From NCBI RefSeq assembly GCF_035994945.1, contig NZ_CP108677.1, positions 3,286,001-3,350,000 of the forward strand: a stretch of DNA of 64,000 nt, written 5' to 3'. The notes under the pieces were generated by a model that was not told the origin of the DNA, ran no database searches, and saw only the letters and a list, made by a program, of their open reading frames with translations. Source of the DNA: Streptomyces sp. NBC_01216 (lineage in GTDB: Bacteria > Actinomycetota > Actinomycetes > Streptomycetales > Streptomycetaceae). A program made the translations under genes and the position numbers. Of the stretch, positions 13,524 to 43,281 are shown in pieces; the stretch's first letter is position 1; every line of letters starts with the position of its first letter.

Positions 13524-13608
13524 GGAGGATTCGCCTAGTGGCCTAGGGCGCACGCTTGGAAAGCGTGTTGGGGGCAACCCCTCACGAGTTCGAATCTCGT
13601 ATCCTCCG
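13524..13608 (+). tRNA. tRNA-Ser(GGA), integration site of the element
   Basis: An 85-nt class II tRNA: acceptor GGAGGAT/ATCCTCC, anticodon arm CACGC-TTGGAAA-GCGTG (anticodon GGA), a long variable arm and T loop TTCGAAT. The discriminator G is followed by an encoded CCA (13609-13611). The gene is intact. Its 3' part, from the anticodon loop onward, lies in the direct repeat that bounds the integrated element, so the element restores the gene at its left end. Confidence 0.97.
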
Positions 13609-13666
13609 CCAGTGCCTCACCGGGCACGTTGTCGAAGGGCCCCACCGTTCGCGGTGGGGCCCTTCG
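13556..13666 (+). repeat. attL: left copy of the 111-bp direct repeat
   Basis: Bases 13556-13666 are identical to 43171-43281. The repeat starts in the anticodon loop of tRNA-Ser (TTGGAAAGCG), covers the rest of the tRNA and ends in a hairpin of the GGGCCCCACC/GGTGGGGCCC type, a likely tRNA terminator. Sequence diverges immediately outside both ends. It is much longer than a typical crossover core. Confidence 0.95.
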
Positions 13667-22355: not shown

Positions 22356-24122
22356 CTACCACTCGTCGGTGTCGCCGTACTTCCCCGGGTTCTGGGCACG
22401 GTCCACAGCCTGTGCACAAGCCTCGGCGAAGGCCACCTCCACGGCAGCCTTGTCCGTACCTCGCACCTGGGCCTCGACCTCCTGGCCCGTGCCGGGGCGA
22501 CGGGCCGTGCGCCAGGCTGAGGCGCGGTCGGTGTAGCGGTCGCTCTCGAACTCCCAGGCCGACACCGACCACTGCTCCGGGACGGCGGTCGCCGCGCGCT
22601 CCCCGCCGGGGAGGAACAGGGCTCGGGCGTGGAAGACCACGGCCCTCTTCGGCACACGGTCGCGGATGGCGCTCGCGCCGCCGGGACCCTGGTGTTCCCA
22701 GCGCCAGCGGTCCCATTCCTCGACCTCGGCGGTGTGGTCGGGCCAGTCCTCGCTCCACCGCGCGACGACCTCGTCGGCGTGCTCTCGGTGGAGGAAGGGG
22801 ACGCGCCGTTCGCCAAGGTGAGCGACGTGTACCACCAGTTCGGCGGGGACGGGACTCTGGCCGGCCTCCGGCGCAACGCTTCCCTCGCTCTGGTCCGTAC
22901 CCCACAGGAGGCCGCCGACCTTGGCGGCGGTGTCCTTGAGGACACGGCTGGTCAGATGCTGGTAACGGCGGCGCATCCGGGCGGACTTGCCCGGCTCCCA
23001 GCCCATGATGGAATCGACGACCGCGTCGGAGACGCCGAGAATAAGCAGGACGGTCGCCGCGGTGTGGCGGGCGTCGTGAAGGCGGGCATCGCGGACGCCG
23101 GCCGCCTTCAGCAGCTCCTTCCACTTGTGGTAGTCCGTGTTCGGGTTCAGGGGCTCGCCGGTGGGCGAGGTGAACACGTACCCCTTCTCCGTCCACAGGT
23201 CCCGGGCCCGGGCTCGCTCGCGTGCCTGATCCTCCTTGTGTTGGCGTAGGAGCTGGAGGAGTTCGTCGGGGGCCCCGATAGGCCGTTGGCCGGCGCGGGA
23301 CTTGGCGTTCTTCGTCTCGCGCCGGGTGTTGATCTTCTGGGGGCAGAAGCCGGGCTTGCGTCCGCAGCGGTCGCCGCAGCCGTGCTTGTAGCGGGGCCGC
23401 AGCCGGCCACGGCGTACGCGGATGACGCCCAGCTCGAAGTCGACGTCCTCCCACTGCATGCCAAGGACTTCACCCTGGCGCAGGCCGAGGGCGAGCGCGA
23501 TGACCCAGCGGGCGGTGTTTCGGTGCTTGGCGGCCTCGGCAAGCAGGTGCTGAACCTCCTCGACCGTGTACGGCTCGACCTCCTCCTCTTCAACCTTGGG
23601 GGCCTTGGCGATAGACGCCGGGTTCGAGGTGAGGTGCTGGCGGCGCACGGCCTCGTTGAGAGCGGTGCGGATCGTGCGGTGGGCCTGGTGGGCGGTGCCA
23701 GCGGCGCTGCCGTTTTCCTGCATCCTCTTGTAGAAGCGCTCCAGGTGCTCGGGTTCGAGCTTCTCCAGGCGGTGGGCGCCGAGGCCGGGGATGAGGTGGT
23801 GGTTCACCGCGACGCGGTAGCCGTCAATGGTGTTCTCCGAGACGTGCGCGGCGGCGATGTTCTCGACCCAGTGGGTAAGCCACGTTTTCACGGTCCAGGT
23901 CTGGCCGGCCTTGCGGATGGCGCCTTTGTCGCGCTGGCGCTCCAGCTCGCGGACGACCTTGGTGACCTCGGGTCGGGTCTTGCGGCTGACGTGGCGGCGG
24001 TCCGGGGTGCCGTCGTCCTTGACGCCGACGGTGACGCGGCCGTGCCAGCGGCCGTCTTTGCCGAGGTAGATGGTCGAGGCACCGTTGGGCTGGCGGGACT
24101 TCGGTGCGGAGGCTCGAGTCAC
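22356..24122 (-). CDS. int: Tyrosine recombinase (integrase) with C-terminal extension
   Basis: This integrase should catalyse insertion at tRNA-Ser(GGA). The 588-residue protein has an AP2-like arm-binding region (STIYLGKDGRWHGRVTVG), a SAM-like core-binding domain (TVKTWLTHWVENIAAAHVSENT) and the catalytic domain: Arg in LGLRQGEVLG, HxxR in LHDARHTAATVLL and the nucleophile Tyr in RMRRRYQHL. A Cys-rich insert (HGCGDRCGRKPGFCPQK) lies between the Arg motif and the HxxR motif. About 150 residues follow the usual end (GGLLWG), an extension with no recognised domain. The GTG overlaps the xis stop as GTGA. Confidence 0.92.
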   Translation of the reverse strand: MTRASAPKSRQPNGASTIYLGKDGRWHGRVTVGVKDDGTPDRRHVSRKTRPEVTKVVRELERQRDKGAIRKAGQTWTVKTWLTHWVENIAAAHVSENTIDGYRVAVNHHLIPGLGAHRLEKLEPEHLERFYKRMQENGSAAGTAHQAHRTIRTALNEAVRRQHLTSNPASIAKAPKVEEEEVEPYTVEEVQHLLAEAAKHRNTARWVIALALGLRQGEVLGMQWEDVDFELGVIRVRRGRLRPRYKHGCGDRCGRKPGFCPQKINTRRETKNAKSRAGQRPIGAPDELLQLLRQHKEDQARERARARDLWTEKGYVFTSPTGEPLNPNTDYHKWKELLKAAGVRDARLHDARHTAATVLLILGVSDAVVDSIMGWEPGKSARMRRRYQHLTSRVLKDTAAKVGGLLWGTDQSEGSVAPEAGQSPVPAELVVHVAHLGERRVPFLHREHADEVVARWSEDWPDHTAEVEEWDRWRWEHQGPGGASAIRDRVPKRAVVFHARALFLPGGERAATAVPEQWSVSAWEFESDRYTDRASAWRTARRPGTGQEVEAQVRGTDKAAVEVAFAEACAQAVDRAQNPGKYGDTDEW

Positions 24123-24415
24123 GCGGCGGCCCCGAAGTCGGTCGCCGACAGACGGCGGGCGAGGAAGTCGTTCACCGCCTCTGCTGGGATGCGGCGCAAG
24201 CTTCCGATCTTGACGGAGGCGATCTCGCCGGAGGAGACGTACTCGTACAGCTTGGTGCGACCGATGCCGATCCGGCGGGCGGCCTCGGCGACGGTGAGGG
24301 CGACCAGGGTCGTGTCGCCGGAGGATCGCCGCTCGGCCATCAGGCTGCGCAAGGCGCCCTCGGGGACGTCCAGGAGCTGGGCTATCTGGGAAACGGGCAG
24401 GGCGGACTGCGACAA
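24119..24415 (-). CDS. xis: Excisionase-like helix-turn-helix protein
   Basis: The 98-residue protein contains a MerR/excisionase-type HTH (VAEAARRIGIGRTKLYEYVSSGEIASVKIGSLRRIPAEAVNDFL, residues about 42-85). Such proteins precede actinomycete integrases and direct excision or regulate int. The start is TTG at 24415, supported by GGGAGGAG six bases upstream. It is translationally coupled to int by a four-base overlap. The leader contains the structured element at 24448-24567. Confidence 0.88.
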   Translation of the reverse strand: MSQSALPVSQIAQLLDVPEGALRSLMAERRSSGDTTLVALTVAEAARRIGIGRTKLYEYVSSGEIASVKIGSLRRIPAEAVNDFLARRLSATDFGAAA

Positions 24416-24447: not shown

Positions 24448-24567
24448 CGGGAGCGGCAACTCCCGTCGGCCTGGCCGGTGGCGTCGTTCAGGGATGGATG
24501 GATGGTGATCGTCGGCGACGGAGGTCGCCACGCATGAGGTTTCTCGGCGTTCGTAGCGCCGGGAGAA
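24448..24567 (-). promoter_or_regulatory. Structured leader of xis-int (copy L)
   Basis: On the minus strand, in order: a hairpin with loop CTACGAA and stems GGCG/CGCC plus CTC-type flanks (24541-24567), the 18-mer CCATCCATCCCTGAACGA (24484-24501), and a hairpin CGGGAG-TTGCCG-CTCCCG (24448-24465), ending 32 nt before the xis TTG. The same three parts, in the same order, precede the helicase gene on the other strand (25274-25374). Loops and 18-mer are identical while stems differ with pairing kept, which suggests RNA structure. Confidence 0.75.
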
Positions 24568-24579
24568 GGCAACCGCCGG

Positions 24580-25119
24580 CTACTCACCGGCAGGTGGCTG
24601 CTCCTGGTTTCGCAGGTGTGCTCGGGACGGGTGCATGCTCCTCTGCAGCGCCCGTTCTTCGAGCCGGAGGAGTTCGTCGACCTGTCCTCTCTGCTCGGGT
24701 CCCTTGTCCCCGTAGGCGTTGAGTTCCATGTCGATCTCGTGCAGGTCCATCTGATTCCGGTCGATCGCCGCTCGCAGTTGGCGGTACTCCCGCGTCATCT
24801 GGACGTACTCATGGGCAAGCTGGCGGATGCGGGGTGTGGCCAGCTCTCCTGGCGGTCCGGTCAGGTCCTGCATGGTGATGTCGAAGACCTTGCAGAAGCC
24901 GAGCGCCTCGTCGAGGTTGACCCTGCGGCGCGGCTTGCCGCTCTCGATGCGCCAGATCGCCGACTGGTTGATCGGATGGCCGGCAGCGGCCATCTCCTCG
25001 GCGAGCTTCACCGTGCTCCAACCGCGGACCTCGCGCTCCAGCTTGATGCGTGCGGCGACGTGTTCCTCCGGTAGAGGACGACCGGGGCCGGCGCGCTCCG
25101 CACCTTCCTCACCGCTCAT
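24580..25119 (-). CDS. XRE-family transcriptional regulator
   Basis: The 179-residue protein has an N-terminal Cro/CI-type HTH (ARIKLEREVRGWSTVKLAEEMAAAGHPINQSAIWRIESGKPRRR, about residues 25-68), followed by a helical, charged region (residues 95-150) suited to dimerisation. ATG at 25119 is chosen over GTG at 25125 because GGGAGG sits at proper distance only for the ATG. It lies between the two structured leaders, transcribed with xis-int polarity. It is the obvious candidate to switch the element between integrated and excised states; this is inference from context. Confidence 0.88.
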   Translation of the reverse strand: MSGEEGAERAGPGRPLPEEHVAARIKLEREVRGWSTVKLAEEMAAAGHPINQSAIWRIESGKPRRRVNLDEALGFCKVFDITMQDLTGPPGELATPRIRQLAHEYVQMTREYRQLRAAIDRNQMDLHEIDMELNAYGDKGPEQRGQVDELLRLEERALQRSMHPSRAHLRNQEQPPAGE

Positions 25120-25273
25120 GCGCACCTCCCTTCACACGACAACCGGGTCCACTGGGGCCAGCGTCCACAACTAAACATCATTGCGGAGTGAAATGCAAGG
25201 CGTTGCGTTGCCGAAAATCTCGGCTATGGTCATAGTCCGCCGTACAGCGGTGGACGACTCCGCACACGCAAGC

Positions 25274-25374
25274 GGCCCCGGTGCTACGAACACCGGGGCC
25301 GAAGTAGAGGCTCCACCGCACAACCATCCATCCCTGAACGATCGAAACCGGCACCGGCCGGGGTTGCCGCCCCG
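25274..25374 (+). promoter_or_regulatory. Structured leader of the helicase operon (copy R)
   Basis: Hairpin I is a perfect 10-bp stem GGCCCCGGTG/CACCGGGGCC with loop CTACGAA (25274-25300). The 18-mer CCATCCATCCCTGAACGA is at 25324-25341. Hairpin II is CGGGG-TTGCCG-CCCCG (25359-25374), ending 26 nt before the ATG. This is the partner of copy L at 24448-24567. Confidence 0.75.
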
Positions 25375-25400
25375 TAATGGCCTGCCGGGTGAGGAGCTCT

Positions 25401-26919
25401 ATGCCTCAGGGTACGACCCTGCCGCCCCAGACGCCATCCCGCTTCGGCGAGGACTCCACGCCGATGGAGCCTCCCTTCAACGTGGACGCCGAGTGCGCGA
25501 TCCTCGGCGCCTGCATGCACCAAGCCGACGTCATTGACGCGGTCAGGCCCATCCTCGGTGACGACGCGTTCTACCGGCCCGCGCACGAAACGATCTGGCG
25601 CGCCCTCCTCGCCCAGCACCGCGAGGACAGGCCGACCGACCCGATCGTCCTCACCGAACTGCTCCAGCAGCAAGGTGACCTGCAGCGGGTCGGCGGCGCG
25701 GCCTACGTGTTCCAGCTCGCCAACGCGCCCTACGGCACCGGCAGCGCGGCGCACCACGCGGAGATCGTCCGCGAGAAGGCCGACCTGCGCCGCCTGGTGA
25801 CCTCCGCCGTACGCACCCTCCAACGGGCCCAGGAGCCCGGCGCGGATCCCGAGGCGATACGCAGCGAGGCCGAAGCGGATTCGCGCCGAACGCGAGCGCG
25901 CGCTCGCCTCGGGGCAGGGGCGGCTGTCCCGCTTCGCCACCGACGGATGGTCGTTCGTCAAAGAGAGCGGCGCGGACGCCGAGCCCCTGTGGGGCACCCG
26001 CGAGAAGAGCCTCTGGGCCCCTGGCGAGAGCCTGATGATCGTCGGCGCTCCGGGCGTCGGCAAGACGACCCTGGCCCACCAGGTGATCTTCGCCCGCATC
26101 GGCTTGCAGGAGACCGTCCTGGAGATGCCCGTCGCCCCCAGCAGGCGCGTGCTCTACCTGGCGATGGACCGGCCCAAGCAGATCGCCAAGGCCATGGCCC
26201 GCCGCGTCTTCCCCACCGACGAGAAGATCCTGCGCGAGCGGCTCGTGGTCTGGGAAGGTCCCCTGCCCGCCACACTCGACAAGGAGCCCGACCTCCTCGC
26301 CGACCTCGCCGCCGCCCACCAGGCCGACACCATCGTGATCGACAGCCTCAAGGACGCGGTCAGCACGATGGTCGATGACAGCCTCGCGGTGGCCTTCCAC
26401 AACGCCCGCATGCGTGCCATTCGCAACGGCGTGGAGATCCTGGAGCTGCACCACCAGCGCAAGGCCACCGCCGACGCGCCGCGCGGCCAGCGCCCCAGCC
26501 TGGACCAGGTCTACGGCTCCACCTGGTTCACCTCCGGCGCGGGCAGCGTCCTGTTCGTCACCGGCCGGGCAGGGGACCCCGCGGTCACCCTGCACCACCT
26601 CAAGACCCCTACCGGTGAAGTCGGTCCCCTGGACGTCACGCACGACCACGTGCGCGGCACCACCACCGTCGACCCCACCAAGGACCCCGCTGTCCTGCTG
26701 CGCAACGCCCCCAACGGGCTGACCGCACGCGACCTGGCGACCGTCCTCATCGGCGGGGGTGACCCCGAACGTGCCGACATCGAGAAGGCGCGACGCCACC
26801 TCAGCCGCCTCGTCGACAGCGGCCTGGCCACCAAGGCAGAGGGCATCGCCGGAGGGGTCGGAGGCGGCCAGCAGGCCCGCTACTACGCCTCCGCCCGCCA
26901 CCTCACCGCCGTCGGCTGA
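25401..26919 (+). pseudogene. DnaB-N / RecA-fold helicase-like replication protein, apparently frameshifted
   Basis: ATG at 25401, preceded by GAGGAG, opens a frame with a DnaB N-terminal-like domain (EPPFNVDAECAILGACMHQA through EIVREKADLRRLVT). Around base 25875 the coherent sequence moves to another frame: IRAERERALASGQGRLSRFATDGWSF leads into a RecA-like ATPase with Walker A IVGAPGVGKTT, DTIVIDSLKDAVS and a winged-helix-like tail ending at 26919. Joined, the two would give about 506 residues. The downstream ATG at 26035 starts inside the Walker A strand, so independent translation is unlikely to give a full domain. A mutation, a sequence error or a programmed shift are all possible. Confidence 0.7.
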
Positions 26920-43170: not shown

Positions 43171-43281
43171 TTGGAAAGCGTGTTGGGGGCAACCCCTCAC
43201 GAGTTCGAATCTCGTATCCTCCGCCAGTGCCTCACCGGGCACGTTGTCGAAGGGCCCCACCGTTCGCGGTGGGGCCCTTCG
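43171..43281 (+). repeat. attR: right copy of the 111-bp direct repeat
   Basis: Identical to 13556-13666. It contains only the 3' part of tRNA-Ser from the anticodon loop onward and no 5' half, so it is not a functional tRNA. It marks the right boundary of the element. Confidence 0.95.

Follow-up and report, generated by a model that had tools for sequence, protein, structure and literature searches.

The question raised by this locus is why two divergent operons of what appears to be an integrated element carry the same arrangement of sequence ahead of their genes, and whether that arrangement acts as RNA or as DNA. The window, by which we mean the whole stretch of DNA analysed (64 kb of Streptomyces sp. 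NBC_01216), contains a pair of exact direct repeats whose position suggests probable att sites and an element of ~29.6 kb. Downstream of an XRE-type gene, the minus strand encodes an excisionase-like protein of the HTH_17 type and then a tyrosine integrase. The plus strand encodes a replication helicase (DnaB-N/AAA_25), then a NikA-like protein and a relaxase. Genes resembling a type I restriction-modification system, as judged by eye, lie at 16.1-22.3 kb. The features of the element are as follows.

13556-13666, no strand: att-like 111-bp exact direct repeat, left copy, beginning within tRNA-Ser(GGA)
22356-24122, minus strand: tyrosine integrase reading frame, 588 aa as given (PF00589, E 4.8e-20)
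24119-24415, minus strand: xis-like HTH_17 gene, TTG start at 24415, its Shine-Dalgarno sequence immediately 3' of leader hairpin 2
24580-25125, minus strand: XRE-type regulator, named by resemblance
25203-25230, plus strand: possible promoter TTGCGT-16-TATGGT, 5' of the helicase-arm leader, read by eye (scanner score sub-threshold)
25401-26919, plus strand: replication helicase gene, DnaB-N then AAA_25, ATG at 25401 as judged from relatives, apparently frameshifted near 25880
43171-43281, no strand: att-like 111-bp exact direct repeat, right copy

The XRE-type gene gave no Pfam match at E 0.001, and a scan of the window region for consensus promoters and terminators found neither. Over 25377-26919 the helicase is split into two frames near 25880, with DnaB-N in the first open reading frame (ORF) and AAA_25 in the second, apparently through a frameshift or a sequencing error; in the relative L034 it is a single 512-aa ORF.

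The preliminary description had reported an identical 18-mer ahead of xis-int on the minus strand and ahead of the helicase gene on the plus strand, each time in the order hairpin with loop CTACGAA, 18-mer, hairpin with loop TTGCCG, ribosome-binding site, with stems that differ yet stay paired and with the XRE regulator between the copies. We recovered each of these elements. There are exactly two occurrences of the 18-mer CCATCCATCCCTGAACGA in the window (24484-24501, minus; 25324-25341, plus). Chance would give 0.05 occurrences with up to three mismatches, and none of 100 shuffles reached two copies. The loop CTACGAA is present in both copies, although as a 7-mer by itself it is not rare in the window (3 observed versus 1.65 expected). 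The full order was found on either side of the XRE-type gene, and the stems pair in both copies (hairpin 1, closing stems GGCG/CGCC versus GGTG/CACC; hairpin 2, CGGGAG/CTCCCG in the minus copy versus CGGGG/CCCCG in the plus copy). We refer to these arrangements as the leaders; their parts are listed here.

25273-25301, plus strand: hairpin 1 of the helicase arm, 11-bp stem CGGCCCCGGTG/CACCGGGGCCG, loop CTACGAA at 25284-25290 (from sequence, fold and covariation in relatives)
25324-25341, plus strand: single-stranded core CCATCCATCCCTGAACGA of the helicase arm (family consensus CCGCCCAUCCCugaacga)
25356-25382, plus strand: hairpin 2 of the helicase arm, outer stem GGCC/GGCC, inner stem GGGGT/GCCCC, loop TGCC (TTGCCG) (from sequence, fold and covariation)
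25391-25403, plus strand: Shine-Dalgarno sequence GAGGAG and ATG (25401-25403) of the helicase gene, at the equivalent position in relatives
25434-25440, plus strand: codon 12 CCA followed by TCCC, a conserved coding segment able to pair with the 5' arm of hairpin 2
24542-24564, minus strand: hairpin 1 of the xis arm, TCCCGGCG/CGCCGAGA, loop CTACGAA at 24550-24556, 15 nt past the XRE stop codon
24484-24501, minus strand: core CCATCCATCCCTGAACGA, second copy, xis arm
24448-24465, minus strand: hairpin 2 of the xis arm, CGGGAGT/GCTCCCG, loop TGCC (from sequence and fold)

The spacer between hairpin 1 and the 18-mer is longer in the minus copy, where it accommodates an additional hairpin, GGCGACCTCCGTCGCC. 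The plus-strand leader folds better than shuffled sequence (z-score -3.0), and the minus-strand leader is unexceptional (-1.4); thus the two window copies alone are no proof of RNA structure, which is supplied by the relatives.

Among 28 distinct hairpin 1 fragments with a 7-nt loop, six of the seven pairs change on both sides, and none of 500 shuffles gave covariation as high. The score of 0.443 fell to at most 0.147 when the partners were slid by one, two or three columns. For hairpin 2 (24 fragments) three of five pairs change on both sides; here shuffles did as well in 0 of 500 by the score and in 5 and 11 of 500 by two counts. When 34 leaders were aligned over their full length, two-sided changes were seen in 11 of 13 pairs. 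From these rows, which were preselected for hairpin 1, RNAalifold recovered hairpin 1 unaided with six of seven pairs compensated; it did not return hairpin 2, which is only 71% paired in this alignment because subfamilies shift register. Such paired percentages are inflated, as hairpins were chosen as the best or as having at least 5/6 pairs (40 leaders passed, 34 were aligned).

The context in which the loops occur offers a comparison free of row selection. CTACGAA is closed by five of five pairs in 34 of 43 contexts inside leaders and in 8 of 60 in other parts of the fetched loci; the corresponding counts are 6 of 9 versus 1 of 21 for CTACCAA and, taking the best of four registers, 67 of 87 versus 65 of 1524 for TTGCC. 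A mutual-information scan over 141 columns and 77 of 88 leaders places the hairpin 1 and hairpin 2 pairs at the top of the pairs with excess pairing; those ranked next are isolated and do not reach one third of the highest value. Hairpin 2 shows 42 G-U against 3 A-C, but a single U-G position accounts for 35 of the 42, and hairpins had been selected for their pairing. The corresponding figures for hairpin 1 are only 5 and 3.

The most conserved stretches of the leader are the core between the hairpins, CCGCCCAUCCC, and the loop of hairpin 2. Both loops are kept (usually CUACGAA in hairpin 1 and UUGCC in hairpin 2) while the stems change with compensation. Hairpin 1 loops were counted in 61 nonredundant leaders out of 123 parsed (11 dropped): CTACGAA is the commonest (21), followed by CTACCAA (5), CGCCAA (3), CTGCGAA (3), CTGAGAA (2) and CTGTGAA (1). 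Compensatory change of the kind that marks structured cis-regulatory RNA as a broad class is found across the relatives. The preliminary description had preferred RNA structure to plain DNA sites and had made this depend on covariation in wider alignments; such covariation is present, in six of seven pairs of hairpin 1 and three of five of hairpin 2, under constant loops.

Nor does the leader match an Rfam family, and the preliminary description had not recognised it as a known one: Rfam 15, run over the window at its gathering cut-off, returned only tRNA and SRP RNA, both outside the leaders. At E<=10 the leader region gave a single chance match (20.5 bits versus a cut-off of 40), and at E<=1 fifteen relative loci gave two weak matches that fell short of the cut-off and lie in L034, away from its leaders. 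No description of such a leader was found in the papers searched, judged from titles and abstract openings, and nothing related was found for int-alpA. On sequence comparison the leader represents a new family of RNA; its broad kind is known, and its paired arrangement is unusual. It appears to be a family of structured mRNA leaders of integrative elements in the Streptomycetaceae, so far undescribed, with one leader per operon, in the orders xre, leader, xis, int and promoter, leader, replication gene.

How widely the leader occurs was assessed with short words and with covariance models. Of 199 genomes from the genus, 41 contain the 13-mer CATCCCTGAACGA, some of the matches being due to chance, and 3 contain its reversed pattern; the listing holds 12 divergent pairs, one of them 0.2 kb apart and the others ~0.8 kb. 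Nine of its places were discarded by eye as chance occurrences in coding DNA (L004, L006, L008, L015, L026, L031, L054, L056 and L059), and copies of three of these (L062, L065 and L073) were kept in one early listing and are absent from later sets. A covariance model, R1, built from 19 leaders including the plus copy of the window, matches 47 of 150 genomes of the family and 11 of 17 genera, the source genome counted. The wider search that had been proposed at the outset finds the leader widespread in integrated elements of the family. Beyond the family, R1 matched 3 of 246 genomes in a sample of the phylum (the source genome, one more of the genus, and a weak match in another family), and a second model, R2, matched 3 of 246 genomes in a sample of the class, all of the source genus; the E-values of both models are rough, owing to a short calibration. 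Among named genomes the 18-mer of the consensus core gave 64 stretches, 58 of them titled in their records as Streptomyces, Actinacidiphila or Streptantibioticus, and R1 at E<=0.01 matches 59 of the 64, one weakly in Azohydromonas.

The pairing of leaders is itself common: a divergent pair is present in 42 of the 59 R1-matched consensus-core stretches and in 47 of 61 loci (60 fetched from R1 searches plus the window). A homologue of the XRE gene of the window lies beside the leader in only 24 of these 47 paired loci (translated search, E 1e-4), the remainder having a more distant or different regulator (L147 is the example read); XRE homologues adjoin leaders in 85 of 157 cases. At one locus (L044, G056:C1:3559300-3563300) the leaders are only ~230 bp apart, the XRE gene was not found, and the replication arm has other sequence in place of hairpin 1. 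The source genome carries a second element with a leader pair (L040, G000:C1:3766282/3767073), a lone leader 5' of a DUF3631-like gene (L049, G000:C1:5985687) and a further weak model match at G000:C1:3465530. An origin in phages was considered and rejected: a loose pattern occurs in 61 viral contigs, none of which matches R1 at E<=0.1, and among the plasmid and phage records listed (20 of 28 and 3 of 3, respectively) the matches are confined to the helicase portion of the query.

Translated searches assigned the gene 3' of the leader in 118 of 157 leaders, as either excisionase-like (48) or replication-type, the latter being a DnaB-like helicase (19) or a second replication-type protein (51) that we take to be DUF3631-like; 39 were unassigned. 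Three placements were read: directly past the XRE stop, ahead of xis-int; as the 5' leader of a replication gene; and that of L048, 26 nt past the stop of a small HTH gene and 5' of a DUF3631-like gene. From the hairpin 2 loop to the start codon the distance has a median of 33 nt (quartiles 32-35, range 25-50; 85 nonredundant leaders), a narrowness that is partly built in, as the parser looked for starts near the ends of model matches. The predicted fold past the core ends 9-19 nt 5' of the start codon in 85 leaders, and shuffled regions behave nearly alike (median 13 versus 11), so this distance was rejected as a sign that hairpin 2 abuts the Shine-Dalgarno sequence.

In several families the Shine-Dalgarno sequence of the leader opens an ORF of 23-25 codons, often with a KAG[CWR] end. 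ORFs of 20-25 codons follow leaders L126-L130, L132, L134, L136, L142-L146, L148, L151, L157, L160, L168 and L171, and those of the replication arm mostly have their KAG[CWR] end at a Shine-Dalgarno-like stretch ahead of the main gene. Translational coupling and leader peptides are possible readings of these ORFs. On the opposite strand, hairpin 1 of L034 and of several replication-arm leaders ends in a T-run and resembles an intrinsic terminator directed towards the XRE gene.

Within an element, the likeness between the two leaders is concentrated in particular parts. Over 21 nonredundant elements, representing 78 pairs, similarity within and between elements is 0.807 versus 0.690 for the core (P<0.0001) and 0.944 versus 0.848 for the hairpin 2 loop (P=0.0001), and copies from the same element are also more alike in the stretch 3' of the core (P=0.0001). 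The likeness is weak in the start region (P 0.006-0.014) and the hairpin 2 5' arm (P 0.04), and no excess was found in spacer 1, the hairpin 2 3' arm or the upstream DNA of these elements. Variants common to both arms of an element include the loops TCGCCG, TTGCAG and CTGCCA and cores with GTACCC. Arm labels in this comparison are simple word matches in translations and are swapped in at least 3 of the 21 elements (L125, L143 and L157), and parsing went wrong for a few cores or loops (e.g. L139 and L035); P values throughout are from permutations, with kinship among leaders uncorrected. The pattern fits selection on the core and hairpin 2 loop by one element-specific reader and lends support to the earlier suggestion that both arms answer to one signal or protein, though gene conversion limited to the core and hairpin 2 could also produce it.

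Conservation extends into the coding region of the replication arm. Among 48 nonredundant ORFs codon 12 ends in A at a frequency of 0.92, the other codons of the first 40 doing so at 0-0.17 each; CCA, GCA, ACA and TCA are all used, and thus nucleotides rather than an amino acid are conserved. UAC over codons 4-5 is likewise conserved in this arm. The codon 12 signature was not found in the excisionase arm. In the replication arm the 5' arm of hairpin 2 prefers its cognate segment at +30..+42 (P 0.0002-0.001 at three redundancy cut-offs) and has no cognate preference for two neighbouring segments or the core; the set was chosen by its codon 12 form, and the test was run after several others. 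When 60 windows were scanned per arm, one window besides the arm's own partner reached P<0.005 in each, at +30 (replication) and +36 (xis), and for all leaders together the pairing with +30..+42 gave P 0.052. These observations are suggestive of an alternative pairing between the hairpin 2 5' arm and the early coding region.

Other partners were tried and rejected. Spacer 1 as an anti-Shine-Dalgarno sequence gave -9.52 kcal/mol for cognate versus -9.56 for swapped partners (P 0.57, 88 nonredundant leaders), so that the masking helix between spacer 1 and the Shine-Dalgarno sequence, present in the minimum-energy fold of the plus copy of the window, is not a conserved feature. Swap tests of the core with the Shine-Dalgarno sequence (P 0.83) and with the hairpin 2 arm (P 0.87) were equally flat; the swap-test set comprised 215 parsed leaders from 258 matches (21 duplicates, 13 without a parsed hairpin 2 and 9 without a start were dropped). 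For a host RNA complementary to the core, the source genome offers 36 places at up to one mismatch versus 26 for a reversed control.

The structure, position and conservation of the leaders and the co-variation of their copies are established by comparison of sequences. As to their role, the reading we place first is that the leader of each operon acts in cis as an RNA switch on translation initiation, that an element-specific factor reads both, and that the hairpin 2 arm possibly changes partners; the chances of this reading being right and wrong seem to us about equal. As the distance from fold end to start codon is uninformative, this reading was marked down to that level and an antitermination reading was marked up. 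Translation of both xis and the replication gene would start under the control of the leader, and excision would thereby be switched together with replication. One element-specific reader, a protein or another trans factor, would recognise the core and the hairpin 2 loop in both leaders. With less confidence, we propose that the hairpin 2 5' arm may swap its own 3' arm for a segment ~30-45 nt inside the gene, giving two states of the start site. A more specific version, which we advance tentatively, is that an element-encoded reader co-evolving with the core and hairpin 2 loop would form an RNA-read 'immunity' layer that gates excision and replication after transcription has started, hairpin 2 exchanging with codon 12 and the first 13 codons belonging to the switch. 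Like riboswitches and protein-read translational leaders, the sequence would be a conserved structured leader 5' of a Shine-Dalgarno sequence with possible alternative pairing; unlike them, it has no Rfam match and is located on the excision and replication genes of integrated elements.

The strongest competitor is processive antitermination, which we regard as somewhat improbable. Once transcribed, the leader would modify RNA polymerase, either by itself (put-like) or together with a protein of the element (nut- or conAn-like), and terminators in both early operons would be read through. A lambdoid nut site comprises a conserved single-stranded stretch and then a hairpin of constant loop and varying stem, occurs in both operons flanking the repressor, and is element-specific. 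Hairpin 2, with its constant loop and varying stem 3' of a single-stranded core in both operons, is like it, and the co-variation of copies within an element resembles that of a site and its reader; the leader, unlike nut, has an additional hairpin upstream. The core was rejected as a copy of host rRNA boxA, since CCGCCCATCCC is by eye unlike GTTCCTTGAGAACTC of two rRNA leaders of the source genome, which we presume to be boxA. The put stems of phage HK022 are joined closely, whereas here the most conserved stretch lies between the hairpins. Antitermination, moreover, has no need of conservation that reaches codon 12 or of a narrow distance from hairpin 2 loop to start, itself partly a product of the parser. 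The layout is nonetheless strikingly like that of HK022, where putL lies directly after PL and putR ~270 nt past the PR start as two similar two-stem-loop RNAs (PMC9378689). In the Streptomyces leaders, too, every copy has two stem-loops and every early operon has a single copy, one 3' of a possible promoter and the other 3' of the first gene, that of the XRE regulator. Unlike put, they have a conserved core between the hairpins, a start codon close 3' of hairpin 2 and conservation into the coding region, and the host family is different; the likeness is one of layout. A bipartite kind of antitermination by RNA plus protein exists in conjugation operons of Gram-positive bacteria, and conAn of their conjugative plasmids is like the leader in being an RNA that stands first in the operon of a mobile element (PMC8955417), a likeness of position.

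We consider it quite improbable that hairpin 1 is a plain terminator or insulator and the remainder a conserved ribosome-binding region without regulation. A GC-rich hairpin directly 3' of the XRE gene, with a T-run on the opposite strand in some copies, is what such a function would give, but it has no need of a conserved loop, a core or a second loop, the core and hairpin 2 loop co-vary between the arms, and the terminator scan of the window region was negative. More doubtful still is a role at the DNA level, in which the leaders would be operators, promoter parts or replication or recombination sites for an element protein, and the hairpins simply palindromes. The duplication around a regulator gene, the palindromic nature of the hairpins in DNA and the L034-type hairpin 1 with its terminator-like T-run on the opposite strand agree with it; constant loops on compensated, varying arms are the reverse of an operator, and the orientation toward the following gene is constant in three operon contexts.

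Finally, hairpin 1 might imitate the anticodon arm of tRNA-Arg (7 nt, C-U-N-N-N-A-A) and be read, or edited from A to I, by a protein that reads tRNA, such as TadA. UACG within a stem-loop resembling the tRNA-Arg2 anticodon arm is edited by TadA (PMC13170351), and the CTACGAA copies have this motif in an anticodon-like stem-loop; CTGCGAA, CTGAGAA and CTGTGAA have G where inosine would arise, and a tRNA-Arg(ACG)-looking sequence of the host, assigned by look rather than by a tRNA finder, has the loop CTACGGA, identical at six of seven positions. As UACG is missing from the CTACCAA and CGCCAA copies and further loops exist, such a reading is possible in some leaders but not general, and we find it scarcely credible as the explanation.

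A switch at translation initiation in both operons, the reading we prefer, is directly testable with the covariance models and the codon 12 signature, and because the leaders of one element co-vary at few nucleotides, its reader can be sought through specificity swaps. Accounts of how integrative elements are controlled in actinomycetes usually concern the promoter. If the proposed switch is real, the leader would be a second gate on the movement of these elements, in about a third of the sampled genomes of the family (47/150), and could explain why the repressor gene and xis share one operon.
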